From Roseibium sediminis (GTDB taxonomy: Bacteria; Pseudomonadota; Alphaproteobacteria; Rhizobiales; Stappiaceae), in NCBI RefSeq assembly GCF_008711325.1, contig NZ_VXDB01000009.1:124001-188000 (forward strand): a stretch of DNA of 64,000 nt, given 5' to 3'. Each line of letters begins with the position of its first letter. Positions within the stretch are counted from its first letter, which is position 1. The notes under the pieces are model-generated. The model worked only from the letters and a program-made list of their open reading frames with translations, ran no database searches and was not told the DNA's origin. Positions 19,572-34,988 of this stretch are shown here, in pieces. The translations under genes and the position numbers were made by a program.

Positions 19572-20393
19572 TCAGACCCGCCAGCGCAGAAGCCGCGTTT
19601 CAAGTTTGCCAACCCCGAAACTCACCACAACACCGAGGAGGGAGAGGATTACGACCCCGGCAAAGAGGCGGTCGAGATCATAGAGCGAACCGGCCTGAAG
19701 GATATAGGCGCCAATGCCATATTCCGCGCCCAGCATTTCGGCAGCCACAAGCAGAATGATTGCGATTGCGAGGCTGATCCGAAGCCCCGACAGGATGCCC
19801 GGCATGGCTCCTGGAAGCACGATCTTGCGGACGATGGACATCCACGACAGGCCGAAGCTTTGCCCCATTCGGATCAAGGTGCGGTCCACATTGTCGACCG
19901 CACCGTAGGTGGCAACAACCGTCGGGGTGAACGTGCCAAAGGCGATCAATGCGTATTTGGACCCTTCATCAATGCCGAACCAGATCACGAACAGCGGCAA
20001 AAGCGCGATCTTTGGAATGGGAAAGATCGCTGCGACGAGTGGCACAAAGCCTGCGCGGGCAGCAGAGAACAGCCCGATCATCAGGCCTGTTCCAATCCCT
20101 GCGAGGGTTCCAAGGAATGCACCAACGACAAGCCGGGTGAGCGAGGGAAAAAGGTTCTGTGTCAGCCGACCGGATTGCCAGAACTCCACCAGCGTCCAGA
20201 AGACATCACTTGGCTTGGGCAATGTGAGCGCCGAAATCCAGCCTTGCCGGGTTCCAAGTTCAGCAATGGCGATCAGTATAGCAAAGACAATCAGCCCGAC
20301 GCCTCGTTTATGTCTTGGCCGAAATCCGCCCCCCCGATAAGGCACGGGCCGGGCAGGTGTGTCGTTATCATGTGCGGACGTCTCAAGCGCCAT
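19572..20393 (-). CDS. ABC transporter permease, NitT/TauT (SsuC) type
   Basis: This inner-membrane permease belongs to a nitrate/sulfonate/taurine/hydroxymethylpyrimidine-type importer. The 273-residue product has about six hydrophobic segments and the binding-protein-dependent loop (FGLSWMSIVRKIVLPGAMPGILSGLRIS), which docks on the ATPase. I chose the start at 20393 (GCGGAG upstream), which overlaps the preceding ATPase gene by 11 bases. It is the last gene of the operon SBP-ATPase-permease. The substrate cannot be read from the sequence; lying between phenylacetate and tryptophan degradation genes, an aromatic acid or its precursor is possible. Confidence 0.88.
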   Translation of the reverse strand: MALETSAHDNDTPARPVPYRGGGFRPRHKRGVGLIVFAILIAIAELGTRQGWISALTLPKPSDVFWTLVEFWQSGRLTQNLFPSLTRLVVGAFLGTLAGIGTGLMIGLFSAARAGFVPLVAAIFPIPKIALLPLFVIWFGIDEGSKYALIAFGTFTPTVVATYGAVDNVDRTLIRMGQSFGLSWMSIVRKIVLPGAMPGILSGLRISLAIAIILLVAAEMLGAEYGIGAYILQAGSLYDLDRLFAGVVILSLLGVVVSFGVGKLETRLLRWRV

Positions 20394-21153
20394 GGACAAG
20401 CTCCGCATCTGCTGCGCGGGCTTCGTCGCGCATCAAGTGCCACAAATGATCATGCTTCTGCTGAAGGTCAGGGTCTGCTGTGCGCCTTTGATCCAGAGGC
20501 GCGTCTATCGTCACCACCTCATGAATGCGACCGGGACGGCGGGACAGAACAACGATCTGGTGTCCCAGTCGAACGGCTTCCTGAAGATTGTGGGTCACAT
20601 AAACGGCGGTGAATGGCGTGCGGCTCCACAAGGAGACTAGGTCTTCCATCAAAAGATCACGGGTCTGACTGTCGAGTGCTGACAGCGGTTCATCCATCAA
20701 CAGCACGGCAGGATTGACGGCAAGGGCACGGGCAATGGCTACCCGTTGCTTCATGCCGCCGGAAAGCTGCTTGGGCAGGGCGTTTGCGAAGTCGCTCAGG
20801 TTGGTGCGGGCGAGAACGTCGGTGATGACGCTGTCGATCCGGTCTTTCGGTAGACCGTGATCTTCAAGCACCAGCGAAATGTTCCCGGCCACCGTTCTCC
20901 ATGGCAGAAGGGCGAAGTCCTGAAAGATGTAGGTGAGGGCGTTGAGGCAACCGTCCGGCTGTTCGCCAACCTGAAACACATTGCCAAGGGTCGGCTGTTC
21001 CAATCCGCCGATAAAGCGCAGCAGAGTGGATTTCCCGCATCCCGAGGGGCCGATGATGCAGGTGATCTTGCCGGCTGGAATTGTGAGCGAAATGTCGCGC
21101 AGAACCTCCACCGCATCATAGCGATGGCCGACCGCGTCAAGGCGGATTTCCAT
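20383..21153 (-). CDS. ABC transporter ATP-binding protein, NitT/TauT (SsuB) type
   Basis: This is the cytoplasmic ATPase of the importer formed with the neighbouring permease and substrate-binding protein. The 256-residue product shows Walker A (GPSGCGKST), Q-loop (IFQDFALLPW), the signature LSGGMKQRVAIARAL, Walker B (AVLLMDEPLSALD) and the switch His (YVTHNLQEA). I chose the start at 21153 (MEIRLDAV), where similarity begins. Its 3' end overlaps the permease start. Confidence 0.92.
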   Translation of the reverse strand: MEIRLDAVGHRYDAVEVLRDISLTIPAGKITCIIGPSGCGKSTLLRFIGGLEQPTLGNVFQVGEQPDGCLNALTYIFQDFALLPWRTVAGNISLVLEDHGLPKDRIDSVITDVLARTNLSDFANALPKQLSGGMKQRVAIARALAVNPAVLLMDEPLSALDSQTRDLLMEDLVSLWSRTPFTAVYVTHNLQEAVRLGHQIVVLSRRPGRIHEVVTIDAPLDQRRTADPDLQQKHDHLWHLMRDEARAADAELVHGA

Positions 21154-21213
21154 GTCAGGATCCCGTTCCGGGCGGGATGTTGCTCCCGCCCTGTCATGTT
21201 CCAACCGATGAGG

Positions 21214-22233
21214 TTAGCCGCGCGTTTCCACGTAGCTGCCATCAACGAGCGTCTCCAGGGTGATGTCCTTGCTGACTAGGTCTTCCGCCTGGAACCACTC
21301 CAGCTGGTCCTTCACCGAGGCGAGGTTCAGTGCTGCTCCTTCATTGAGGCGCATCGTTCCGTTGACGATGGACGGCGCGGCCTTTTCGCGAGGCTGATCG
21401 TTGTAGACATGCTTGTGCAGCAGGTCGACCATCGCGTTCAAGGCTTCGTCGCCGCCGGTCTGGGCAATCATGGCTGCGTTGTAGTCGGCGGCACCCTTGG
21501 AATAGGCGGACAGGAAGCTCTTGGTGAGATCCCGCTCGTTGCCAGCGTTTTTCTCCGAAGTGAAGAGCGTTGTCACCTGATAATCCGGAACATAGTCGGC
21601 CACATTGCCGATGATGTGAACGGCGCCGGATCCTGCCAGTGGCTTGGCAATGTGCGGTACAATCGACCAGGCGTCGATCTGGCCCGACTTCAAGGCACCG
21701 ATAACCGCGCCGACTTTCTGCAGCGGCTTGAACTTCAGCTCGATCCCTTCCTTTGCAGCGATTTTGGAGCCCATGTAATGGAAGGAAGACCCGGCCGTTG
21801 TCATGCCGAAGGTCTTGCCGTTCAGGGCGGCAGGAGACGTCACACCGGCCTGAAAGGCTGCATCGGAGACGAGGATCTTCTGGCCATCGATGCCGGCTTC
21901 CTCGGAGAGGCCGCCGCCGATTACCTTGACTGCACCCTTTTGGGCAAGGGAGATCAGGCCACCGGAAATGGCAGTCACACCAAAATCAACGTCGCCGGAG
22001 GCAATCGCGACGGCCATCGGCTGGGCAGCCTGAAAGAATTTCAGCTCAACATCGAGACCGGCTTCGGCAAAGTAGCCGCGCTCATAGGCAACAAAGCTGC
22101 CTGCGTGACTGGTAAAGCGCAGCGCTCCGAGAACGACCTTCCGGTTCTGCGCAATGGCCGGCATTGGCAGCGTGGCAAGAGCAGCAGCTCCGCCCATAAG
22201 GCCAAGGGCCTGGCGGCGATTGAAAACGGACAT
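21214..22233 (-). CDS. ABC transporter substrate-binding protein, NitT/TauT type
   Basis: This is a periplasmic binding protein of the NMT1/SsuA-like superfamily. The 339-residue product begins with a twin-arginine-type signal (FNRRQALGLMGGAAALATL, cleavage after AIA), so it is probably exported folded. The mature part has the family features (FVAYERGYFAEAGLDVELKF and GDVDFGVTAISGGL). A strong GGGAGG site fixes the start at 22233. It is the first gene of the transporter operon, 60 bases before the ATPase gene. Confidence 0.9.
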   Translation of the reverse strand: MSVFNRRQALGLMGGAAALATLPMPAIAQNRKVVLGALRFTSHAGSFVAYERGYFAEAGLDVELKFFQAAQPMAVAIASGDVDFGVTAISGGLISLAQKGAVKVIGGGLSEEAGIDGQKILVSDAAFQAGVTSPAALNGKTFGMTTAGSSFHYMGSKIAAKEGIELKFKPLQKVGAVIGALKSGQIDAWSIVPHIAKPLAGSGAVHIIGNVADYVPDYQVTTLFTSEKNAGNERDLTKSFLSAYSKGAADYNAAMIAQTGGDEALNAMVDLLHKHVYNDQPREKAAPSIVNGTMRLNEGAALNLASVKDQLEWFQAEDLVSKDITLETLVDGSYVETRG

Positions 22234-22276
22234 GAAACCTCCCAAAACTTTTTTACAGCCGAGCCGTCACCGCAAA

Positions 22277-22445: not shown

Positions 22446-23258
22446 TCACTTGGCGGAGATCTTGTCAGCCATCACGGAAATGGTCTGAACGTAGACGCTG
22501 GCCTTGTTCCATTGCCGCAGAACGCCGTAATTGGCAGTGCCCGGACCCCAAGGCTGACCGGCCCGCCAGCCTTTTTGCTTCAGATAGTTGGCGGTCGAAG
22601 CAAGAACGTCAGGCACCGAGCGGATGAGGTCGCGGCGACCATCGCGGTCATAATCGACAGCGTATTTCATATAGGATGAGGCCAGAAACTGTGTCTGACC
22701 GATCTCGCCAGCCCAGGCTCCGCGCATTTGCTCCGGAGCCATGTCGCGGCGCTTGATGATCTGGAGGGCATTGACCAGCTCATTGGTGAAAAAGTCCGAC
22801 CGGCGGCAATCATAGGCCAGCGTGGACAGTGAGCGGATGATCGACATGTTGCCGACATAGCCGCCAAAGTTTGTTTCTAGTCCCCAGATGGACAAGAGGA
22901 TCGGTGCGGGAACGCCGTATTTCTTTTCTAGCTTGTTGAACAGGCGCGCATATTGCTGTTCAAGGCGTTTCGCCTTGTTGATCATCGCGTTGTTCACACG
23001 CTTGGCGTAGAACTGCTCGAACGACAGCTTGAAGGATTTCTGGTTCCGGTCCAGCCGGATCACCTTCTGGTCGTAGGAAACGCCCTTCAAAGTGGACGAC
23101 ACCAGACCAGAACTCAGTCCGTATTTCGATGCATTTTGGGTGAAGTCGGCTTTCCAGGCTTCAAAGCCCTTGGCATCGTTGCCGCATTTGGCACTTGCAG
23201 TGCCTGCCTGAAGCACTGCCAGCGAAAAACAAAAAGCAAAAACACTGCGCAAAATCAT
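22446..23258 (-). CDS. Lytic murein transglycosylase, MltB family
   Basis: This is an exported GH103-type lytic transglycosylase that cleaves peptidoglycan glycan strands to 1,6-anhydromuropeptides. The 270-residue product has a signal peptide (LQAGTASAKCG; a Cys lies two residues after the apparent ASA cleavage site, but this is not a clear lipobox). It also has the SLT_2 domain with the catalytic Glu in IWGLETNFGGYVG and the AGEIGQTQFLASSYMKYAVD segment. It lacks the C-terminal peptidoglycan-binding domain of longer MltB relatives. A good ribosome-binding site (AGAGG) precedes 23258. Confidence 0.9.
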   Translation of the reverse strand: MILRSVFAFCFSLAVLQAGTASAKCGNDAKGFEAWKADFTQNASKYGLSSGLVSSTLKGVSYDQKVIRLDRNQKSFKLSFEQFYAKRVNNAMINKAKRLEQQYARLFNKLEKKYGVPAPILLSIWGLETNFGGYVGNMSIIRSLSTLAYDCRRSDFFTNELVNALQIIKRRDMAPEQMRGAWAGEIGQTQFLASSYMKYAVDYDRDGRRDLIRSVPDVLASTANYLKQKGWRAGQPWGPGTANYGVLRQWNKASVYVQTISVMADKISAK

Positions 23259-23619: not shown

Positions 23620-24018
23620 TCAGCGGGAAATGACAGCCGTTGCCTCGATTTCCACGAGAGCTTCGTCTTCGACCAGTTCCGAGACGACGAGCATTGACAT
23701 GGCGGGGAAGTGTTTTCCGAAATACTTCTGGTAGGCCTTGCCGACGTCCCGCTGGTGGCTGACATAGGTTTTCTTGTCCGTCACGAACCATGTCAGGCGA
23801 ACCACGTCACTCGGCTTGCCGCCTGCTGCTTCCACGATGGCAACAATATTGGCAAGTGCCTGTTCCATCTGGCCGATGAAATCATGGCTTTCGAATTTCT
23901 GCTCGGCTGTCCAGCCGATCTGTCCGCCGATATAGAGCGTTCCGTCTGGTGTGAGCATGCCGTTGGCATAGCCTTTGGCAGGGGCCCAGCCTTCGGGCTG
24001 AATGACTTTATGAGACAT
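23620..24018 (-). CDS. RidA/YjgF-family protein (non-canonical)
   Basis: Rid proteins hydrolyse enamines or imines released by PLP and other enzymes, or have related deaminase roles. The 132-residue product has the family fold markers (YIGGQIGWTA, QALANIVAIVEAAGG, VEIEATAV). Where archetypal RidA has the catalytic Arg in a PARS-like motif, this protein reads FPAMSMLVV, so the canonical arginine is missing. This places it with Rid4-7-type relatives rather than housekeeping RidA. As the last gene of the tryptophan/anthranilate operon it may deaminate an enamine intermediate of that route; this is inference. Confidence 0.85.
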   Translation of the reverse strand: MSHKVIQPEGWAPAKGYANGMLTPDGTLYIGGQIGWTAEQKFESHDFIGQMEQALANIVAIVEAAGGKPSDVVRLTWFVTDKKTYVSHQRDVGKAYQKYFGKHFPAMSMLVVSELVEDEALVEIEATAVISR

Positions 24019-24070
24019 GCGGTTTCTTTCGTTTTTTCAGCAAAACACGTGCCTTGAAAATTCGGCGGGC

Positions 24071-25282
24071 TCAGGTGACGCGGGAGCGTACGGCGTATTT
24101 CGGGTCCTTCCACGCTCCGGTCGACATGATGTCTTCCAGAATCTCGGCTGCGGCGAAAACGTCTGCCTCATCGAGATAAAGCGGCGTGAAGCCGAAACGC
24201 ATGATGTTCGGCGCACGGAAGTCACCGATCACGCCGCGCTCAATCAGGGCCTGCATCGCCTCATAACCCTTCTCGAAACGGAAGGAGACCTGAGAGCCAC
24301 GCGCTTGCGGGTCCCGTGGGGATGCCAGTTCCAGCATCGGGCAGCGGCGTTCGACTTCAGCAATGAAACGCTCCGACAGAACGATGGAGGCCTTTCGGAT
24401 ATCCTCCATCGTGACGCCTTCAAAGGCGTTCAGGGCTTCGTCCAGAATGGACAGCTGAACAATCGCCGGTGTGCCGATGCGAAGTCGCTCCGTGCTCATT
24501 GCGGGGCGGTAACCCAGCTCCATCGCAAAGGGCGCATCGTGACCGAGCCAACCGGCAAGGGCAGGCTGGATTGTTTCGACAATATCCGGGCGGGCATAGA
24601 TGAAGGCTGGCGCGCCGGGGCCGCCATTCAGATATTTGTAGGTGCAGCCAACCGCAAACTCGGTGTTGCATCCGGTCAGGTCAACCGGAACCGCACCTGC
24701 CGAGTGGGCGAGATCCCAGATCATGACTGCGCCAGCTGCATGAGCCTTGTCAGTGATGGCTTTCATGTCGTGCATGCGTCCGGTGCGATAGTCGACCTGG
24801 GTCAGCATGACCACGGCAATGCTCTCGTCGATGGCGTCCACGACGGATTCCGGATCCACGACTTTCAACTCGTGGTTCTTGCCGATCGTGTCGATCAGGC
24901 CTTTGGCCATATAGAGATCGGTCGGGAAATTGCCGTTGTCGGAGAGAACCACCTTCCGGTCCGGGCGCATTTGAAGGGCTGCGGCAACGGCCTGATAGAC
25001 CTTGATCGACAGCGTATCACCGGTCGCGACCGTGCCTTGTGCTGCGCCGATCAGAGGCGCGATCCGATCGCCCACGGTTTTCGGCAGGTGCATCCAGTTT
25101 GCCGTGTTCCAGGCCTTGATCAGATCCTGCCCCCATTCGGAGGTGATTGTTCTGGCAGCGCGCTCGGCGGCCCCTTTGGGCAGCACACCGAGCGAATTGC
25201 CGTCGAGATAGAGAATCCCGTCCGGGAGCTCGAAGCGATCCTTGCGCGGCAGTAGTCGCGCCTGAGCGATTGGGGCGTTCAT
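24071..25282 (-). CDS. kynU: Kynureninase
   Basis: Kynureninase is a PLP enzyme that cleaves L-kynurenine to anthranilate and L-alanine. The 403-residue product shows LDGNSLGVLPKG near the N-terminus, the DLAHSAGAVPVDL region, the PLP-binding Lys in GCTYKYLNGGPGAPAF, and the C-terminal RAPNIMRFGFTPLY segment, all typical of KynU. It starts 3 bases after the tryptophan dioxygenase stop and is followed by the RidA-like gene after 52 bases. Confidence 0.95.
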   Translation of the reverse strand: MNAPIAQARLLPRKDRFELPDGILYLDGNSLGVLPKGAAERAARTITSEWGQDLIKAWNTANWMHLPKTVGDRIAPLIGAAQGTVATGDTLSIKVYQAVAAALQMRPDRKVVLSDNGNFPTDLYMAKGLIDTIGKNHELKVVDPESVVDAIDESIAVVMLTQVDYRTGRMHDMKAITDKAHAAGAVMIWDLAHSAGAVPVDLTGCNTEFAVGCTYKYLNGGPGAPAFIYARPDIVETIQPALAGWLGHDAPFAMELGYRPAMSTERLRIGTPAIVQLSILDEALNAFEGVTMEDIRKASIVLSERFIAEVERRCPMLELASPRDPQARGSQVSFRFEKGYEAMQALIERGVIGDFRAPNIMRFGFTPLYLDEADVFAAAEILEDIMSTGAWKDPKYAVRSRVT

Positions 25283-25285
25283 GGC

Positions 25286-26125
25286 TTACAGGTCTCCACG
25301 TACATGCCAGAGTTCGGGGAAGAGCTGGACGTCCAGCATTTTTTTCAGATAGCTCACACCGGGCGTCCCGCCGGTGCCGCGCTTGAAGCCGATGACGCGC
25401 TCGACTGTCGTGACGTGGTTGAAACGCCAGCGACGGAAATAGTCCTCCAGATCGACCAGCTTTTCCGCAAGTTCATACAGCTCCCAATAGTCCGCGACAT
25501 TCTCGTAGACGATCTTCCAACGCTTGCGGATTTCGTCATTTGCCTCATGCGGTTGGGTCAACTGGGGAGCGGGCGGTGTGGCATCCGGTCCATCCAGTGT
25601 CTTGAAGAGCAACGTCACCGCATCATCGTAGAAACTCGGGCGTGCAAGTTCTGCTTCCAGCTTGCCAAGGATTTCCGGGTGATGCGCATGTGGCTTGAGC
25701 ATGTTCGGATTTCGATTGCCGAGCACGAATTCGATCATCCGGTATTGCCACGACTGGAACCCGGAAGAAGGGCCAAGGGCATGGCGGAATTCGGTATATT
25801 CGCTCGGCGTCATGGTCCGAAGAACGTCCCAAGCTCCATTCAGCTGATCAAAGATGCGCGAAACGCGGGTCAGCATCTTGAATGTCGAAGGCATCTTGCC
25901 TGCATTCATTTTCTCGCGGGCGCTGGCAAGCTCGTGGATGGCGAGTTTCATCCAGAGCTCACTGGTCTGGTGCTGGATGATGAACAGCATCTCGTCATGC
26001 GCATCGGAAAGGGGATGCTGCGCCGAGGTGACCGGGTCCAGATGCAGATAGTCGCCATAGGACATGGCGTCCTTGAAATCCATCTTCGCTCCGGCTTCGC
26101 CGGGATCGTAAGCAGACGAACTCAT
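25286..26125 (-). CDS. kynA: Tryptophan 2,3-dioxygenase
   Basis: This cytoplasmic heme enzyme opens the indole ring of L-tryptophan to N-formylkynurenine. The 279-residue product has the family segments [29 protein letters not shown] (substrate/heme pocket), [18 protein letters not shown] and [21 protein letters not shown] take the ATG at 26125, which overlaps the ligase stop by one base (TGATG); a TTG one codon earlier is possible. Clustering with kynU supports a catabolic role. Confidence 0.96.
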
Positions 26126-27750
26126 CAATTTTGGTCCTTCAGGCGGAAGCGCTGGATCTTGCCCGTGGCTGTTTTGGGAAGTGTGTCGGTGAAGATGACC
26201 GAGCGCGGATATTTGTAGGGAGCAATCGTTGCCTTCACATGGTCCTGCAGAGCCTTGACCAAGGCATCGCTTGCCTCGACACCTGCCATCAGCACGACAT
26301 GCGCCTGAACGATCGAGCCGCGATTTTCATCTGCAACGCCAATGACGGCACATTCAGCCACAGCGTCGTGAGACAACAGGGCCGCTTCCACTTCAGGTCC
26401 GGCGATGTTGTAACCGGCCGAAATGATCATGTCGTCGTTGCGGGCGGCAAAATGGAAGTAGCCGTTTTCATCGCGTACGAATGTATCGCCCGTGATGTTC
26501 CAGCCGTTCTGGACATACTCGCTCTGGCGCTCGCCGCGCAGGTATCGACATCCGGTCGGGCCACGAACGGCAAGACGACCGATTTCGCCGTCGGCAAGAT
26601 CCTCGCCATCCAGCCCGATGACCTTGGCCTCATAGCCTGACACGGGTTTACCGGTGCAAGCCGGGCGGTGGTCGCTGAACCGGTTGGAAATGAAGATGTG
26701 CAGGAGTTCGGTGGCGCCGATGCCGTCCAGCATGGGTTTGCCGGTCTTTTGCATCCACTCGTCATAGACCGGGGCAGGAAGGGTTTCGCCCGCAGACACG
26801 GCTGCACGCAGGGAGGAAAGATCCGCGCCTTCGTCCATCGCCTTCATCATCGCGCGATAGGCGGTCGGGGCGGTAAAGCAGACGGTTGCCTTGTACTTCT
26901 GAATGATCTCGATCATGTTCGGCGGCGTTGCCTGTTCCAGCAAGGTGGCGGCCGCCCCGAAGCGAAGCGGAAAGATCGCCAGCCCGCCCAGTCCGAAAGT
27001 GAAGGCAAGCGGCGGGGACCCGACAAAGACGTCATCCGGCTGAACCGAAAGGACTTCCCGTGCATAACCGTCCGCAATAATCAGAAGATCACGGTGAAAA
27101 TGCATCGTTGCCTTCGGGATACCGGTGGAACCGGACGTGAAGCCCAGAAGCGCAACATCGTCCTGAGACGTCTGGACGGCATCGAAACGAACCGGCTTTT
27201 CGAGGGCGAGGCGATCAAGCTCAGCATCATGATTGGACGTGCCGTCAAAGCCGACGACCGTATTCAGGAAGGGGCTGTCCTTGGCGCAGGCGGCCATTTC
27301 GTCCATCAGCCGCGTGTCGCACAGTGCATGTGTGATTTCGGCTTTTTCGACATACTTCTTCAGCTCGGCAGCGCGAAGCATCGGCATGGTGTTGACGACC
27401 ACAGCTCCGGCCTTCGTTGCGGCAAGCCAGCAGGCGACCATGGCAGGATTGTTCGCGGACCGGATCAGGATCCGGTTTCCCGGCTTGATGACGAGATCTT
27501 CCACCAGCGCATGGGCGAGACGGTTCGTCCAGTCAGCCAGTTCCTTGTAGGTTCGACGACGGCCATTGCCGATCAGGGCGGTGTGGTCGCCAAAGCCCTT
27601 TTCGACCATGGTGTCGGTCAGTTCGACCGCGGCATTCAGCGTGTCGGGATAGTCAAAGCCGTCGAGTCGCAACTCCGGCCAGGTGTCGAATGGCGGAAGG
27701 TTGTCGCGGGCAAATGTATCGGTATGGGCTGATGGCTTGAGCATGCTCAT
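26125..27750 (-). CDS. abmG: 2-aminobenzoate-CoA (anthranilate-CoA) ligase
   Basis: This adenylate-forming ligase of the benzoate-CoA-ligase type is predicted to convert anthranilate, ATP and CoA to 2-aminobenzoyl-CoA. The 541-residue product has the P-loop-like [15 protein letters not shown] motif, [13 protein letters not shown], the [10 protein letters not shown] motif and the C-terminal [13 protein letters not shown] lysine motif. The specificity call rests on context: it lies between tryptophan dioxygenase/kynureninase genes and an anthraniloyl-CoA monooxygenase. Benzoate or salicylate activation cannot be excluded from sequence alone. It overlaps its neighbours at both ends. Confidence 0.85.
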
Positions 27751-28910
27751 TCTCCCTCAAACGCGTTGAGCGTCTGCCTTGCTATGACGACTTTCTGAAC
27801 GTCCGTGGCACCCTCGTAGATGCGAAGGGCACGGATTTCGCGGTAGAGCTTTTCAACTGTTACGCCGGAGCGCACGCCGTCGCCGCCATGCAGCTGGACC
27901 GCCTTGTCGATGACGATCTGGGCCTGCTCGGTCGCAAAGAGCTTGGCCATGGCCGCTTCCCGCGAGACCCGCGGCGCTCCGCTGTCCTTGGTCCAGGCTG
28001 CGCGATAGACGAGCAGGGCCGCGGCATCGATGTCGAGCGCCATGTCTGCAATATGGCCTTGAACCATCTGCAGGTTATAAAGCGGCTTTTCGCGGATTTG
28101 CCGGGTTGTTACCCGGAGCAACGCCTCATCAAGAGCCCGTCTCGCAAAGCCGAGGGCAGCAGCTGCCACGGTTGAGCGAAAGACGTCCAAAACGGACATT
28201 GCTATCTTGAAGCCCGCGCCGCGCCTTCCAATCAAGGATGAGGCCGGTATCCGGCAATCGCTGAAGCGCAAGGTTGCCAGCGGATGCGGGGCGATTGTTT
28301 CCAGCCGCTCCACAACCTCCAGCCCCGGCGTGTTAGCTGGAACGATGAAGGCGGACAGGCCGCGCGCGCCGGGTTCTTCGCCGGTACGTGCAAAGACCGT
28401 ATAAACGTCGGCAATCCCGCCATTTGAAATCCATGTCTTTTCGCCGTTCAGGACGAAATGCGCGCCGTCAGCGGTCGCTGTCATGGTCGAGTTGGCGACA
28501 TCCGATCCGGACTGGGGTTCGGTCAGGGCAAAGGCGGAGATCGCCTTGCCATTGCGGGTGAGGGGAAGCCAGTCGGCTTTTTGGGACACGGAACCGAAGA
28601 GTGAAATGGCCCCTGTTCCGAGCCCCTGCATGGCAAAGGCGAAGTCGGCAAGACCATCGTGGCGAGCCAGTGTTTCGCGGATCAGGCACAGGGATCGGAC
28701 ATCCAGTGGGAAGGAGCTGGTCGGCTCCACGCCCGAATGGGTCAGGAAACCTGCGCGACCAAGCATGGCGACGAGCGTCTTGCAGGCTTCATCCGTGTTT
28801 GAATGATCAACAGACGCAAGATTTTCCGTTGCCCAGGCGTCGAGATCTTCCTGAAGCCGGCGGTGACGGTCTTCGAAGAACGGCCAGTCGAGAAAGCTTC
28901 TGTCAGCCAT
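27747..28910 (-). CDS. Acyl-CoA dehydrogenase
   Basis: This is a FAD-dependent acyl-CoA dehydrogenase of 387 residues. Visible motifs are [14 protein letters not shown] (FAD/substrate contact), [19 protein letters not shown], and the C-terminal [17 protein letters not shown], in which the Glu of IYEG is the likely catalytic base. In this operon it probably oxidises a saturated or ring-derived CoA thioester formed after anthraniloyl-CoA dearomatisation. The exact substrate is unknown. It overlaps the ligase gene by four bases and the hydratase gene by one. Confidence 0.88.
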
Positions 28911-29716
28911 CAGTTGCCCTCGAAAACCGGTTTCTGCTTGGCGACAAAGGCTTCGTATGCCCTGTTGAAGTCCTCTGTCTGCATGCAGATGGCCTGCGCC
29001 TGTGCTTCGGCCTCAATCGCCTGTTCAAGCGACATTGACCATTCCTGATTGAGCATGGTCTTGGTCATCATGTTGGCAAAGGCCGGGCCTTCGGAAATGC
29101 GAAGTGCAAGTTCTGTGGCAACGCCTTCCAGTTCGCCGGCTTCCACCATCCGGTTGAAAAAGCCCCAGTTCAAGCCTTCCGTGGCGGACATGGACCGGCC
29201 CAGATAAAGCAGTTCGGCAGCGCGGCCCTGACCGATGATACGCGGGAGGATGGCACAGGCTCCCATGTCGCAGCCGGCAAGGCCGACGCGATTGAACAGG
29301 AACGCCACCTTGGCATCGGGCGCGGCGATGCGCAGGTCCGAGGCCATGGCAATGATCGCACCGGCACCGGCACACACACCCTCGACGGCGGCGATGATCG
29401 GCTTGCCGCAATTGATCATGGCTTTCACCAAGTCGCCGGTCATGCGCGTGAAGCGAAGAAGTTCCTTGGTGTTCATCTTCACCAGCGGCCCGATAATATC
29501 GTGCACATCTCCGCCGGAGCAGAAGTTGCCGCCGTTGGGGCCGAACACCACGACCTTTACGTCATCGGCATAGTGCAGGTCGCGAAACCAGTCGCGCAGC
29601 TCCGCATAGCTGTCGAAAGTCAGCGGGTTTTTCCGCTCGGGGCGGTTGAGGGAAATCCTCGCAATGCCGCCGGAAATCTCGCAATTGAAATGCTTTACAT
29701 CAGAACGCATGGTCAT
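28910..29716 (-). CDS. Enoyl-CoA hydratase/isomerase family protein
   Basis: This is a crotonase-fold protein of 268 residues. It has an oxyanion-hole segment [19 protein letters not shown] and the second segment [19 protein letters not shown]. At the position of the usual catalytic Glu/Asp the sequence reads [19 protein letters not shown]. It probably hydrates, isomerises or opens a ring CoA intermediate in the 2-aminobenzoyl-CoA route. The start at 29716 overlaps the MarR stop; an ATG two codons later is also possible. Confidence 0.85.
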
Positions 29717-30183
29717 CCCCGTTTGCCCTCAAGCTTTTCGGTGAGTGTATCGAGCCGCTTGATCATGCCGAGCGTGTCGTCCTCGGTCAGGTCTGCCAGC
29801 AGCGAGTCAATCCAGGATTCGTGAGCGGCCGCATGTTCGGCAAAGGTGGTGCGACCATTGTCCGTCAGCTTGACCAGCGAAGCACGACGGTCGCCGGGAA
29901 CAGCGGTGCGCTCGGCGAGACCTTCCTGCGCCAGCCGGTCGACGATGCCGGTGATATTGCCGTTCGATACGCGCAACAGCTCCGAAATCTCGCTCATCTT
30001 GAGGCCGTCCGGATAGCGATAGAGCGAGGACATCACGTCGAAGCGGGGCAGGGTAGAGCTGAACTCCTCCCGCAGCTTGCGCCGCAATTCGTCTTCAATC
30101 CGGCTGCTGGCCTTGAGCAGCTTCAGCCACAGGCGCAAGCGGGTTTTGGAGAGCGCGTCTTTTTCCGAAGTCGGCTTGTCCAT
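29713..30183 (-). CDS. MarR family transcriptional regulator
   Basis: This winged-helix regulator of 156 residues contains the MarR core ([44 protein letters not shown], with [13 protein letters not shown] as the wing). It lies inside the operon, two bases after the dehydrogenase stop and overlapping the hydratase gene. Its likely ligand is an aromatic CoA ester or acid of the pathway, as for BadR/FerR-type MarR proteins, and its likely target is the palindromic region at 33272-33306. A GGAGGAGAG site fixes the start. Confidence 0.9.
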
Positions 30184-30185
30184 GA

Positions 30186-30926
30186 TCAAATCTCTCCTCC
30201 GGACAGGGAAAGGGTGTGGCCGTTGACCGAGCGGGCTGCGTCCGAACAAAGCCACAAGGCTGTTCCGGCAACTTCGTCGGTCTGGATGAACCGGTTCTGC
30301 GGGTTGTTCTTCTTCAAGGCAGCTTCCGCGTATTCAGGGCTCATTCCGGTTTTAGAAACGATGTTTTGAACCGACCGCTCCAGCATCGGTGTTTCGATGA
30401 AGCCGGGGCATATGGCGTTGGCGGTAATGCCGCTGGTGCCGAGTTCCAGCGCCAGTGCGCGGGTGAGACCGACGACGCCATGCTTTGCAGCCACATATCC
30501 GGAGACATAAGGATAGCCCTTCAGGCCCGCCGTGGACGCGACAGCGATGAGGCGGCCCCAGCCATTTTGCTTCATGTCTGCCAGCGCGGCTTTCCACAGC
30601 GTGAACACGCCGACAAGATTGACCGACAGCATGGAGTTCAGATCATCTGCCGTCATCTTTGCGAAGGGAACGCTCTCTGCAGCCCCGGCATTGGCGATGG
30701 CAATGTGAACGGGGCCGCGTTTTTCGCGGGCTCTTTGCAGTGCCTGTTCCACCTGCGTGGCATCCGTCACGTCGCAGGTTTCATAGGGCAGGCCTTGCGC
30801 CTTCAGTCGGGTCTCATTGCGGCCGAGAATGGTGACACGTGCGCCGGATTGCGCGAACTCGCGCGCGATCTCGGCGCCAACACCTGATCCTCCTCCGGAA
30901 ATGACAACGTGCTTGTCGGCGACCAT
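30186..30926 (-). CDS. Short-chain dehydrogenase/reductase (probable 3-hydroxyacyl-CoA type)
   Basis: This is a classical SDR of 246 residues with an N-terminal Rossmann fold (VVISGGGSGVGAEIAREF), the NAG motif (IANAGAAES) and the catalytic YxxxK (SGYVAAKHGVVGLT) after a Ser in AVASTAGL. In this operon it likely oxidises a hydroxyacyl-CoA or reduces a ring oxo-CoA intermediate of anthraniloyl-CoA degradation. It overlaps the monooxygenase stop by one base. Confidence 0.88.
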   Translation of the reverse strand: MVADKHVVISGGGSGVGAEIAREFAQSGARVTILGRNETRLKAQGLPYETCDVTDATQVEQALQRAREKRGPVHIAIANAGAAESVPFAKMTADDLNSMLSVNLVGVFTLWKAALADMKQNGWGRLIAVASTAGLKGYPYVSGYVAAKHGVVGLTRALALELGTSGITANAICPGFIETPMLERSVQNIVSKTGMSPEYAEAALKKNNPQNRFIQTDEVAGTALWLCSDAARSVNGHTLSLSGGEI

Positions 30927-33223
30927 CAGACCTTCACCACCGTTTCGGCTTCGCGGTCAGCAAGGCGCCATGCCTGATCCCGACCTGCCATGTAGGGCAG
31001 CGGCCAGCTTTCGTGACGATCTCCGATCTTGGCTCCCTCGTGCATGGTCCAATAGGGATTTGCAAGGTGAGGGCGGCCCACGCACACAAGGTCCGCACGG
31101 CCAGCCATCAGGATCGAGTTGGCGTGGTCTGCCTCATAGATGTTGCCGACGGCCATTGTCTTGATCCGGGCTTCGTTGCGAATGCGATCGGAGAACGGCG
31201 TCTGGAACATGCGGCCATAGACGGGCTTCGCCTTGATCGTCGTCTGACCCGCTGACACGTCGATGATGTCTGCCCCGGCAGCCTCGAAAAGTTCCGCAAT
31301 TCGAACCGCTTCATCCGGGGTTACACCCTCGTCGCCAACCCAGTCATTGGCCGAGATGCGGACCGACATCGGCTTGTGTGACGGCCAGGCGGCCCGCATG
31401 GCCTCGAACACTTCCAGCGGATAGCGCATGCGGTTTTCGAGCGATCCGCCGTATTCGTCGTTACGGGTGTTGGAAACCGGCGTGATAAAGGAGGAAATCA
31501 GGTAGCCATGGGCTGCGTGCAGCTCGATCATGTCGAAACCGGCGCGGTCGGCCATTTCGGCAGATGCCACGAACTGCGCCTTGATTGTATCCATCTCGGC
31601 TCTTGAAAGTTCGTGCGGCACGGCATTGTCGGAAGACCACGCAATCGGCGAGGCGGAGACGAGATCCCAGTTTCCGTCGGCCAGGGGTTTGTCCATGCCT
31701 TCCCAGCCGATATTGGTGGAGCCCTTGCGACCGGAATGGCCGATCTGGCAGCAGATCCGCGCATCGGTTTCCGCATGGACGAAATCTGTCAGGCGTTTCC
31801 ACGCGGCCTCGTGTTCAGTAGCATAAAGCCCCGGACAGCCCGGCGTGATGCGACCGGTTGGCGAAACGCAGGTCATTTCCGTATAGACGAGACCCGCACC
31901 GCCCTTTGCCCGTTCGCCGTAGTGGATCAAATGCCAGTCCGTCGGGCACCCGTCGACCGCCTTGTACTGGGCCATGGGAGAGACCACAATGCGGTTCTTC
32001 AGCTCCATGTCACGCAGCTTGAAGGGGGCGAACATCGGCGCTCTGGTTGGCCCGTTGGTCGGTGCTCCCGCCGTTTCCTGAAACCACTTTTCTGCCGAAG
32101 ACAGCCAGATGGGATCGCGCAGGCGCAGGTTTTCGTGACTGATGCGCTGCGAGCGGGTGAGCAGCGAATAGTTGAATTGCACCGGATCGAGATCGAGATA
32201 ACGCTCGACTTCCTCAAACCACTCCAGAGAGTTGCGAGCCGCTGATTGCAGACGCAGCACTTCCAGACGCCGCTCTTCCTGATAGCGCTCGAAGGCAGCT
32301 TCCAGCGTCGCTTCGGAATGAAGGTAATCGGCAAGGGCGATGGCGCTGTCGAAGGCGAGACGCGAGCCTGAGCCGATGGAAAAATGCGCGGTCGCCGACG
32401 CATCCCCCAGCAGCACGACATTCTCGTGATACCAGCGCTGGCAGAGAACACGCGGAAAGTTCATCCATACAGCAGAGCCGCGAAGATGCGCGGCGTTGGA
32501 CATCAGCGCATGGCCACCAAGGTGGTTGGCAAAGACCTTTTCGCAGGTGGCGATGGTCTCTTCCTTGGACATGGTCTCAAAGCCGACCTTGTCCCAGGTT
32601 TCCTGAGAGCATTCCACGATGAACGTCGCCGTATCGGCGTCGAACTGGTAGACATGCGCCCAGATCCAGCCGTGCTCGGTCTTTTCAAAGATGAAGGTGA
32701 AGGCGTCGTCGAATTTCTGGTGCGTGCCGAGCCAGACGAACTTGCACTTGCGCACATCGACTTCCGGCTTGAAATGCTCCGCGTAGTGCGAGCGAACACG
32801 CGAGTTGATGCCATCGCAGGCAATCACGAGATCGTAGTCGGCGCGGTAGGCTTCCACGTCTTCAAATTCTGTCTCGAAGCGCAGGTCGACACCCAGTTCG
32901 CGGGCGCGTTCCTGCAGGAGAATCAGCATCTGCTTGCGGCCGATGCCGGCAAAGCCATGCCCGCCGGAAACCGTGCGCACGCCGTTATGCACCACCGCGA
33001 TATCGTCCCAATAGGCGAAATGGCTGCGAATGGCCTCGGCGCTTTTCGGATCGTTTTTCTGCAGGTTTTCCAAGGCGTCGTCGGAGAGGACAACCCCCCA
33101 GCCAAATGTGTCATTGGCCCGGTTGCGCTCGATCACGACAATCTCGTGGTTCGGATCGCGCAGCTTCATGGAAATTGCAAAATAGAGACCGGCAGGGCCT
33201 CCACCCAAACAGGCAATGCGCAT
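30926..33223 (-). CDS. abmA: Anthraniloyl-CoA monooxygenase/reductase (2-aminobenzoyl-CoA type)
   Basis: This 765-residue two-domain flavoenzyme matches the design of 2-aminobenzoyl-CoA monooxygenase/reductase. It has an N-terminal aromatic hydroxylase half (FAD motif [50 protein letters not shown]). The C-terminal half is an old-yellow-enzyme/FMN reductase ([47 protein letters not shown]). The known reaction uses O2 and NADH to hydroxylate and reduce the ring of the CoA ester, breaking aromaticity without ring-cleavage dioxygenase. The start at 33223 has AGAGGAG upstream; the frame stays open to 33646 over the divergent hydrolase gene. It is the first gene of the operon. Salicyl-CoA 5-hydroxylase is the main alternative for the first half, but the fused reductase argues against it. 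Confidence 0.9.
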
Positions 33224-33271
33224 GGTCCGTTCTCCTCTTGGTCGATTTTCCCTTGAGACCATGATCAGTGT

Positions 33272-33306
33272 ATATTTCATATTTAAATGTTTCAAGATTG
33301 AAATAT
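33272..33306. promoter_or_regulatory. Palindromic operator region between abmA and the formamidase gene
   Basis: This AT-rich stretch in the 135-base divergent gap contains TTTCAA-GA-TTGAAA (33290-33303) and a wider pair ATATTTCA (33272-33279) / TGAAATAT (33299-33306). Such symmetric AT-rich sites suit the MarR regulator encoded in the operon and would control both divergent units. Confidence 0.5.
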
Positions 33307-33358
33307 CGCAACTGCGCGCATAATCTCCTATCCCTGTGCAAAGCGTGAGGGAGGAACC

Positions 33359-34177
33359 ATGACCGACGCGACCGGAATTGACTGGGAAGATGCCTTCGCC
33401 AATGGCGCCTATATCGAAAATGCCATGGCGTACCCGGATCGCTGGGCCGCTCTGGCCGAGGCTTTCCGAATGGCGCATCCGCAAAAGGAACTGGATGTTT
33501 CCTATGGTCTTCATGCACGCAATCGGCTGGATCTCTTTTATCCGCAGGGTGATCCGAAGGGTCTCGCCGTGTTCGTCCATGGCGGTTACTGGCTGAAATT
33601 TGACAAATCCTGGTGGTCGCATCTGGCAACGGGCGCATTGGCTCACGGGTGGGCGGTTGCCTTGCCTTCATATGTGTTGGCGCCCGAGGCACGCATTTCC
33701 GACATGACCAGCCAGATCGGGGCGGCAATTGAAAAAGCTGCCAGCCTCGTCAAGGGATCAATTCACATATCCGGCCATTCTGCCGGCGGTCATCTGGTCA
33801 GCCGCATGGCGTCGTCAACGCCACCGCTTTCGCCGGATGTCTTGCAGCGGCTGAAGCGTGTCGTGTCCATCAGCGGTCTGCATCATCTGGAGCCGCTGCA
33901 ATTCACCGACATGAACAAGGATCTGCGCCTTGATGGTGATGAAGCGCGCGCTGAAAGCGCCGCGCTCCTTGATCCGGTTGCGGGTGTTGAAACCATCTGC
34001 TGGGTAGGCGCACAGGAGCGCCCCGAATTCTTGCGCCAGAACCGGCTTCTGGAAGAACGCTGGTCACGAAAAGGCGCAACCATTTCCGCTGTCTATGATC
34101 CCGGAAAGCACCATTTCAATGTTATCGACGGACTGGCTGATCCGGACAGCGCATTGACACGGGCATTTGTGGGGTGA
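33359..34177 (+). CDS. Alpha/beta hydrolase, probable kynurenine formamidase
   Basis: The predicted role is hydrolysis of N-formylkynurenine to kynurenine and formate, the step between the tryptophan dioxygenase and kynureninase encoded nearby. The 272-residue protein has the AFMID-type oxyanion motif [10 protein letters not shown], the nucleophile elbow [13 protein letters not shown] and a C-terminal catalytic His in [10 protein letters not shown]. This is the alpha/beta-hydrolase formamidase type, unlike the metal-dependent KynB of many bacteria. GGGAGG precedes the start. It is divergent from the catabolic operon and shares its control region. Confidence 0.8.
33719..33742 (+). repeat. 24-bp exact direct repeat, copy 1 (inside the formamidase gene)
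   Basis: This segment, starting GGGGCGGCAATTGAAAAAGC, recurs identically at 35021-35044 in non-coding DNA beyond the immunity-like gene. Here it codes for part of the sequence GAAIEKAA. Confidence 0.8.
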
Positions 34178-34337: not shown

Positions 34338-34988
34338 GTGGCAGTTTATGGAATTTTCTATGATAGGATCGGCGATCCAACGTTGGGTGAAGAAACATTT
34401 GCTGACGAAGTTTTGGATGGAGATTTCAAAAGCGCCTTTCCAGTTGGGGTAGAGTTTGATCCGAGTGTCAAGGCTGCCTTCGCAAGCGATGGCGGTCTGA
34501 TACAGCAAGATGCACAATATCAAGGTTTGCCCGTAGATATGTCAGGATTACCTAAACGTGTCCGGTTGGGGGGCGCGCACAAGTTTCCGCTTCCTGACCT
34601 TCTAAAAGCAACGGGGCATTTTCTAGTCAGCGAAAAGTTGCGGGATGCGATTGAGGTGCTTGAGCCTGACGTTCATCAGTTCCAGCCTGTTGAACTGATC
34701 TGGCAAGACGGCAGTCCTGTGGCCACCTATTTCTGGTTTAATGTCTGCAATCGCCGGGATGCAATGGACCGCGAACACACAACATATTCCTTTAATGATC
34801 GCATCAAGATTTGGAATTTAGCTTCGAATGGCAAGTTCGTAGTGAATACTTCACAGTCCAACGGAGCTCACGTTTGGGTGGATAGCAGACTGACCAACCG
34901 AACCATTTTTGTTTCAGAGAGTTTTAAGGACGCAATGACGGCGGCCGGTATTACCGGGATTGGTTATAGCGAATACCAAACCGTCTGA
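34338..34988 (+). CDS. Imm11/DUF1629-like putative immunity protein
   Basis: The 216-residue protein resembles the Imm11 (MXAN_0049/DUF1629) family seen beside polymorphic toxins. It has the pattern HFLVSEKLRDAIE, FQPVELIWQDG, YFWFNVCNRRDAMD and a terminal FVSESFKDAMTAAGITGI block. It starts with GTG at 34338 behind a weak AAGAAG site. Its composition is clearly more AT-rich than the flanking genes and the preceding 160 bases are AT-rich as well, which suggests acquisition by transfer. No toxin gene lies next to it, so it would be an orphan immunity gene; a toxin-independent role is equally possible. Confidence 0.65.
   Translation: MAVYGIFYDRIGDPTLGEETFADEVLDGDFKSAFPVGVEFDPSVKAAFASDGGLIQQDAQYQGLPVDMSGLPKRVRLGGAHKFPLPDLLKATGHFLVSEKLRDAIEVLEPDVHQFQPVELIWQDGSPVATYFWFNVCNRRDAMDREHTTYSFNDRIKIWNLASNGKFVVNTSQSNGAHVWVDSRLTNRTIFVSESFKDAMTAAGITGIGYSEYQTV

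Follow-up and report, generated by a model that had tools for sequence, protein, structure and literature searches.

We analysed a 64,000-nucleotide stretch of the Roseibium sediminis genome (contig NZ_VXDB01000009.1, positions 124,001 to 188,000; hereafter the window), in which the tryptophan 2,3-dioxygenase (TDO) gene kynA and the kynureninase gene kynU lie among genes for enzymes like those of the aerobic 2-aminobenzoyl-coenzyme A (CoA) pathway. The genome (G000) is assembled into 117 contigs totalling 4.99 Mb, with a completeness of 99.99%; the window lies in contig 117. On the minus strand, from 33223 to 23620, the gene order is ABMR-SDR-MarR-ECH-ACAD-ligase-kynA-kynU-RidA, with ABMR standing for a 2-aminobenzoyl-CoA monooxygenase/reductase-type fusion, ECH for enoyl-CoA hydratase and ACAD for acyl-CoA dehydrogenase; an alpha/beta hydrolase gene diverges from ABMR on the plus strand across 135 bp. 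The coordinates that a first-pass annotation had given for all ten genes were each confirmed in place, and the formamidase-like hydrolase it had described as divergent was found there (Table 1).

The minus-strand genes from ABMR to RidA look like a single tight operon. Five of the eight junctions are overlaps of 1-4 bases (ABMR/SDR, -1; MarR/ECH, -4; ECH/ACAD, -1; ACAD/ligase, -4; ligase/kynA, -4 with a TTG start or -1 with ATG 26125), two are gaps of 2-3 bp (SDR/MarR, +2; kynA/kynU, +3) and one is a gap of 52 bp (kynU/RidA). The start codon of kynA is probably ATG 26125, which overlaps the ligase stop by one base, with TTG 26128 as a possible start; that of ABMR is likely ATG 33223, preceded by a GGAG ribosome site, rather than the start of the 906-aa open reading frame (ORF). 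On sequence grounds, this layout supports co-transcription and the earlier description of one coordinated unit with mostly 1-4 base overlaps.

ABMR combines a VioD-like FAD monooxygenase with an old-yellow-enzyme (OYE) domain; both FAD_binding_3 and Oxidored_FMN were matched, and the match to NF006101 is full length, so that a flavin monooxygenase and an OYE reductase occur in one polypeptide. An AMP-binding aryl-CoA ligase gene lies in the same operon, in 4-base overlap with ACAD. The TDO and kynureninase genes are both intact, each scoring above its family cut-off, and kynA gave the only TIGR03036 match in the genome. Within the 135-bp divergent promoter there is a perfect palindrome, TTTCAA-TC-TTGAAA, 66 nt from the ABMR start codon and 55 nt from that of the hydrolase gene.

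Table 1. Features of the kynurenine and CoA-ester locus in the window
Feature	Position	Strand	Basis or remark
RidA-family protein	23620..24018	-	PF01042 over Pfam cut-off
kynU, kynureninase	24071..25282	-	TIGR01814 280.6 bits, cut-off 246.4
kynA, tryptophan 2,3-dioxygenase	25286..26125	-	TIGR03036 393.4 bits, cut-off 390.7
AMP-forming aryl-CoA ligase (1626 bp), probable anthranilate-CoA ligase	26125..27750	-	best solved relative 4wv3
ACAD, acyl-CoA dehydrogenase family	27747..28910	-	PF00441 / PF02770 over Pfam cut-offs
ECH, enoyl-CoA hydratase family	28910..29716	-	NF006107 478.5 bits, cut-off 330
MarR-family regulator, candidate repressor of both divergent promoters	29713..30183	-	PF01047 over Pfam cut-off
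SDR family oxidoreductase	30186..30926	-	adh_short/adh_short_C2 over Pfam cut-offs
ABMR, 2-aminobenzoyl-CoA monooxygenase/reductase-type fusion, first gene of the operon	30926..33223	-	NF006101 1305 bits, cut-off 1078
Sigma-70-like promoter, TTGAAA-17-TACACT	33267..33295	-	-35 = right arm of operator
Palindromic operator (probable), TTTCAAGATTGAAA / TTTCAATCTTGAAA	33290..33303	.	only exact TTTYAANNTTRAAA in genome
Divergent alpha/beta hydrolase, probable N-formylkynurenine formamidase, AFMID type	33359-34177	+	

Directly after the hydrolase gene, a gene for an Imm11-family immunity protein was found (34338-34988, plus strand; PF07791, 118.7 bits). Downstream of RidA there are ATP-binding cassette (ABC) transporter genes with an NMT1-type binding protein (19572-22245, minus strand) and a lytic transglycosylase gene (22446-23258), apparently unrelated to the operon.

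Recurrence of the linked genes in other genomes

Among 87 genomes of the family, ABMR exceeded the cut-off in 69 and TDO was found in 72. Seventy genomes had a long ABMR match together with TDO, leaving out G001, which lacks TDO, and two with TDO, G017 (with its ABMR in two parts) and G038 (with no long ABMR match); kynA lay within 12 kb of ABMR in six of them (G000, G037, G044, G045, G058 and G069), and in G066 both genes lie at contig ends, so that linkage is not judgeable. In a sample of 385 alphaproteobacterial genomes, ABMR was present in 71 (E up to 1e-200), TDO in 58 (E up to 1e-40) and both in 44. ABMR occurred in 44 of the 58 kynA genomes versus 27 of the 327 others (p 6e-27), or, with the window genome left out, in 43 of 57 versus 27 of 327 (p 2e-26), the relatedness of the genomes being left in both values. 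The two genes lay within 10 kb of each other in 7 of the 385 (G000, G353, G437, G264, G115, G246 and G338), and contig ends may conceal further cases. ABMR was also present in 17 of 80 named kynA loci, among the matches listed, which were those most like the kynA of the window.

For gene maps, ABMR matches with fewer than 500 aligned residues and matches covering less than 35% of the query were left out; from the class sample we fetched, of the 74 ABMR places, 40 that had no kynA close by, and 40 of the 63 kynA places. A plasmid of Sagittula stellata E-37 carries ABMR-SDR-MarR-ECH-ACAD-ligase-kynA-kynU-thioesterase-RidA, and a plasmid of Thalassospira marina carries the same gene set in the order kynU-kynA with the divergent hydrolase present. 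The Ruegeria pomeroyi megaplasmid has the divergent hydrolase and kynA, with kynU absent from the stretch; in an Ensifer stretch, kynU lies a few genes from the 2-aminobenzoyl-CoA (abm) genes; plasmid stretches of Leisingera, Paracoccus, Phyllobacterium and Comamonas have abm genes without kynA or kynU. A RidA relative was present in 22 of 26 ABMR loci in one mapped set and in 16 of 40 ABMR stretches in another.

Fusion of the two gene sets unique to the window was thus rejected. The first-pass annotation had regarded a single alphaproteobacterial operon of this kind as unusual, which is not supported as stated, since the linkage recurs in several alphaproteobacterial families. As to the gene order for which it had proposed a survey, kynA-kynU, kynU-kynA and kynA-only arrangements all occur. 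The recurrence of the same gene set in other organisms argues against a chance neighbourhood.

Employing a kynA tree of 136 rows (a quick search; rows with stops, shorter than 220 aa or identical were left out), we found that the label 'fused' requires 20 changes, at least 11 of them forced by starred branches, and a single origin of the fusion was rejected. In this tree 44 of the 133 inner branches are open, the sampling was of our own choosing, a locus cut by a contig end was counted as unfused, and gain and loss are not separable. The nearest neighbours of the window kynA in the tree are fused copies from two congeners (L042 and L045), while the unfused kynA genes of two other congeners and Roseibium marinum (L057, L058 and L129) stand elsewhere, outside a starred branch. 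Fused copies in the genus are therefore not simple descendants of the unfused ones, and horizontal acquisition or replacement appears likely.

The divergent hydrolase and the promoter palindrome

The divergent gene encodes an alpha/beta hydrolase with a GxSxG nucleophile and an HGGYW-like motif. Counting only proteins of at least 45% identity as the same family (L166 at 29%, L034 at 30%, and L208, L209 and L212 at 32-38% were not counted) and dropping the duplicate genome L081 (= L047) from this count and from that of MarR below, we found the hydrolase near kynA in 9 of 30 loci with both ABMR and kynA, in 17 of 105 loci with kynA only and in 0 of 52 loci with ABMR only (p 5e-5, first versus last). 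Three solved sequence relatives were found, one of which is the Drosophila kynurenine formamidase (4e11/4e14/4e15; 20-21% identity). The VIA-align rows list the nearest folds only, such that families missing there may still be related. Because the hydrolase tracks kynA rather than ABMR and has the Drosophila enzyme among its solved relatives, it is probably an N-formylkynurenine formamidase, of the AFMID type rather than a classical KynB.

Classical KynB (PF04199) was not found in the window genome; its lone PF04199 protein is a relative of isatin hydrolase B (551.6 bits over 259 residues to 4j0n), an enzyme described from Labrenzia aggregata in the text available as PMC6117287. The gene for this relative lies on contig 23 (L041:1306-2253, minus strand), adjoined by an ORF at 762-1256 judged MarR-like by eye. 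It is possible that this protein provides a second feed into anthranilate via isatinate.

The hydrolase could instead be an ordinary esterase or lipase, with formylkynurenine deformylated by another enzyme or spontaneously. Its NCBIfam name is 'hormone-sensitive lipase'; three fused congeners (L043, L044 and L046) have kynA-kynU in the operon and no such hydrolase beside it; and it is absent from 21 of the 30 loci with ABMR and kynA. Against an ordinary esterase stand the association with kynA and the lack of any PF04199 protein besides the isatin hydrolase relative, as well as the position of the hydrolase gene at the head of same-strand hydrolase-kynA-kynU runs in Bradyrhizobium-type genomes, mostly behind the same palindrome as in the window. 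We consider the esterase unlikely.

The palindrome in the divergent promoter, a feature that the first-pass annotation had missed, is a probable MarR-type operator, conserved upstream of the operon and accompanying the MarR gene. Without mismatch, TTTYAANNTTRAAA occurs once in the 4.99-Mb genome, and the reversed-pattern control occurs 0 times. Among the 13 family genomes searched, G037 alone lacked an exact match; each of the other 12 has one just upstream of ABMR, and such further matches as were fetched from them have none of the query genes adjoining. ABMR has the site, at up to one mismatch and 20-160 nt upstream, in 33 of 52 kynA-less loci and 22 of 30 that include kynA, as compared with means of 1.69 and 0.58 loci, respectively, for 59 permuted palindromes. 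One permuted arm, YTTTAA, scored near the true arm (14/105, 30/52 and 8/30 for kynA-only, ABMR-only and linked loci) and, with no mismatch allowed, exceeded it in the kyn set (8 vs 3); we read it as a Bradyrhizobium-like form of the same site rather than as an independent control. Two further permuted arms reached 8 of 105 and 25 of 52. In ten loci (L035, L037, L053, L055, L060, L133, L136, L171, L179 and L180) two sites lie exactly 14 bp apart upstream of ABMR, which suggests two MarR dimers side by side.

A regulator other than the MarR of the operon might own this site, or the site might be a promoter element. The palindrome overlaps the -35 hexamer of a sigma-70-like promoter, itself a consensus match at 9 of 12 positions (two such sites in the region versus 3.3 in shuffles), and the site is kept in 6 of 19 ABMR loci in whose stretch no MarR gene was found. 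However, operator and MarR gene go together: the site was present at 46 of 53 loci with a MarR gene downstream of ABMR versus 9 of 29 without (p 8e-7, relatedness of loci left in). In G108, for which no ABMR was listed (L236 / L254), the operator stands before a MarR-kynA-kynU run whose first gene is a MarR relative (62%), so that a MarR-operator pair may serve kyn genes alone there. Palindromes of such size are typical of MarR operators. We consider another owner of the site, or a promoter element, unlikely and retain MarR as the candidate repressor.

The same site is present upstream of kyn operons unlinked to ABMR in 17 of 105 loci (mean 0.54 for permuted arms, close variants up to 14, 8 and 8). 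The named loci in this set were chosen by likeness to the kynA of the window, and 7 of the 17 with the site are Bradyrhizobium-type hydrolase-kynA-kynU runs. We further searched nine genomes, each picked for a kyn operon with the site, for the near-identical pattern YTTYAARCYTRAAR. Among 31 distinct sites, 21 lie upstream of kyn genes, the ligase, ABMR or a RidA relative (66%), 4 upstream of generic genes for Liv-type transport or enoyl-CoA hydratase (one ~350 nt off) and 6 without a pathway gene; with the eight kyn sites that defined the selection left out (the kyn site of G297 fails the stricter pattern), 13 of 23 are firm pathway sites. G447 (8.0 Mb) and G472 (9.1 Mb) have only three sites each, before hydrolase-kynA(-kynU), the ligase and ABMR. 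No overall excess of the operator across whole genomes was found, with 0-5 sites in each, a number that the reversed-pattern control often equals or exceeds, and the argument for a regulon is therefore one of site location only. These locations suggest one MarR regulon covering kyn, ligase and ABMR operons in some lineages. By a narrow preference, we favour the view that repeated rearrangement has fused and split the kyn and abm modules, the operator meanwhile keeping them together, and that the window is a fully fused case with a single exact genomic operator.

A proposed route from tryptophan and its place among known systems

The ligase and ABMR would act on anthranilate and anthraniloyl-CoA, as judged from the best solved relative of the ligase and from gene context. 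Against solved structures the ligase scored 286.8 bits with the anthranilate-CoA ligase 4wv3 and 258.3 bits with the best benzoate-CoA ligase. At one aligned position, which we take to line the substrate pocket, the window ligase and 4wv3 have Phe (FTFG) and the benzoate-CoA ligase 4rm3 has Tyr (FAYG), a hint in favour of anthranilate.

Alternatively, the CoA part could belong to a salicylate (salicyloyl-CoA to gentisoyl-CoA) or benzoate pathway, with the kyn genes as chance or loosely related neighbours. Two family assignments speak for this: the NCBIfam name of NF006101 is 'salicylyl-CoA 5-hydroxylase/oxidoreductase', and the ligase scored 375.2 bits with TIGR02262, the benzoate-CoA-ligase family, 0.05 bits short of the cut-off of 375.25. 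On the other side, kynA and kynU are flanked by the ligase and RidA genes, kynA overlapping the ligase by 1-4 bases; linkage or strong co-occurrence with kyn genes recurs elsewhere; the nearest solved ligase is an anthranilate-CoA ligase; one operator marks kyn, ligase and ABMR in Bradyrhizobium-type genomes; and a gentisate gene was named in 0 of 8 annotated plasmid stretches, none of the searches having been aimed at gentisate genes. A salicylate or benzoate pathway is thus very improbable. Synthesis of anthraniloyl-CoA for a quinolone- or aurachin-like product, to which 4wv3 (presumably AuaEII of aurachin biosynthesis) would point by its name as an anthranilate-CoA ligase, is scarcely credible for a ligase in one unit with ABMR, ECH, ACAD, SDR and RidA, given that family scans of the ten locus proteins found no polyketide-synthase family and that some relatives have thioesterase, HADH, thiolase and Liv-type transporter genes as neighbours.

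Two observations on related clusters were made in passing. In Ruegeria lacuscaerulensis (L066:2590-4884) ABMR is only 47% identical to that of the window, against 79-85% for the ECH, ACAD and ligase in that cluster; this ABMR is possibly a replacement. A small cupin gene with no NCBIfam match, absent from the window operon, lies between ACAD and the ligase in some abm clusters (L033:15538-15990, L045 near 8279 and L061 near 11212).

We asked whether the operon is the ANTHRANILATE route of the genome. A search for anthranilate 1,2-dioxygenase (TIGR03228) gave nothing over the cut-off in the genome (two weak matches, best 25.6 bits vs 671.9), and one for 3-hydroxyanthranilate 3,4-dioxygenase (TIGR03037) gave 0 matches at E 0.001. 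The first-pass proposal of an alternative to the catechol and 3-hydroxyanthranilate routes agrees with these two family searches, which recognised neither route and did not extend to kynurenine 3-monooxygenase.

Our favoured reading, with a probability of about 0.85, is a catabolic operon under MarR control through which tryptophan would be converted to a dearomatised CoA ester; the order tryptophan, anthranilate, 2-aminobenzoyl-CoA, proposed earlier, is a coherent reading of the gene families. In the proposed route, KynA would open the indole ring, the divergent hydrolase would remove the formyl group and KynU would yield anthranilate and alanine, after which the ligase would convert anthranilate to anthraniloyl-CoA. 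Following ABMR, enamine hydrolysis and a beta-oxidation-like ring opening could be carried out by RidA, SDR, ECH and ACAD, RidA being a possible enamine/imine hydrolase for the dearomatised product. A MarR dimer might repress both divergent promoters from the one palindrome overlapping the -35 of the operon, and would be released probably by an aryl-CoA (anthraniloyl-CoA) or by anthranilate.

Besides the family names and hydrolase counts given above, several points weigh against this reading. Cupriavidus metallidurans CH34 is reported, in the available text of PMC8879955, not to grow on anthranilate despite having kyn and abm genes. Of the ABMR loci, 19 of the 52 without kynA and 8 of the 30 linked to kyn genes have no operator, and it was found at only 3 of 40 unfused kynA loci of the class sample (L203, L213 and L236), that of L213 being at the ORF start, outside the counted 20-160 nt; co-regulation of unlinked operons is thus lineage-limited. 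In some genomes the operator count does not exceed that of the reversed-pattern control, e.g. 5 and 4 vs 10 and 9 in G474. The lack of other routes, too, is a result of two family models.

As far as the dearomatised CoA ester, the chemistry would be that of Azoarcus (Aromatoleum) evansii, whose aerobic abm pathway (Schuhle et al. 2001, as reviewed in PMC4539516) likewise employs an AMP-forming anthranilate-CoA ligase, a bifunctional monooxygenase/reductase and beta-oxidation-type enzymes. There the substrate is anthranilate, and 'kynuren' occurs 0 times in the available text of that review, whereas the unit in the window includes kynA, kynU and a formamidase-like gene. In Arthrobacter sp. Rue61a, according to the available text of PMC3534580, two ligases are active on anthranilate and anthraniloyl-CoA was detected in anthranilate-grown cells; the strain has putative ABMR genes as well, but the route is fed from quinaldine, and 'kynuren' occurs 0 times in that main text. 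For C. metallidurans CH34 both the tryptophan (kyn) and the 2-aminobenzoyl-CoA (abm) genes have been catalogued (PMC8879955), and abm genes have been listed for C. necator JMP134 (PMC2842291); both strains are Betaproteobacteria, and neither a fused operon nor a shared operator is described in the available text of these papers. P. xenovorans LB400 has kynABU (PMC11676955, in the text available).

Like the classical kynurenine pathway, the window has kynA, kynU and anthranilate as the predicted product; unlike it, the genome has no KynB (PF04199) besides the isatin hydrolase relative, and the product would go to CoA activation. An alpha/beta hydrolase of the animal kynurenine-formamidase type probably takes the place of KynB, the activity shared with the Drosophila enzyme being a prediction at 20-21% identity. 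The classical bacterial pathway is reportedly that of Kurnasov et al. 2003, and work by Perez-Pantoja et al. (2008/2012) on Cupriavidus and Burkholderiales may already link both pathways. In the open literature, subscription papers not being covered, we found no paper combining kynureninase with 2-aminobenzoyl-CoA, nor one that deals with the operon, the operator or the regulon described here. Neither the enzymes nor the two half-pathways are new, and both half-pathways have been catalogued in one organism, CH34 (PMC8879955, in the text available); the gene arrangement is recurrent and apparently under-described, and a candidate regulon and a candidate formamidase are new here.

For the conserved 'lipase/thioesterase' family of the hydrolase, whose solved structure 2pbl has no assigned function, a probable function is hereby proposed, and for these branches 'salicylyl-CoA 5-hydroxylase' and 'hormone-sensitive lipase' may be misleading names in the databases. 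The analysis also puts forward a candidate regulator together with its operator and the likely class of inducer. Tryptophan and anthranilate are signals and plant-growth compounds, so which organisms remove them, and in response to what, is relevant to marine and rhizosphere ecology. The operon may offer a testable account of tryptophan disposal in many aerobic Alphaproteobacteria, through CoA-ester dearomatisation rather than through catechol or 3-hydroxyanthranilate.

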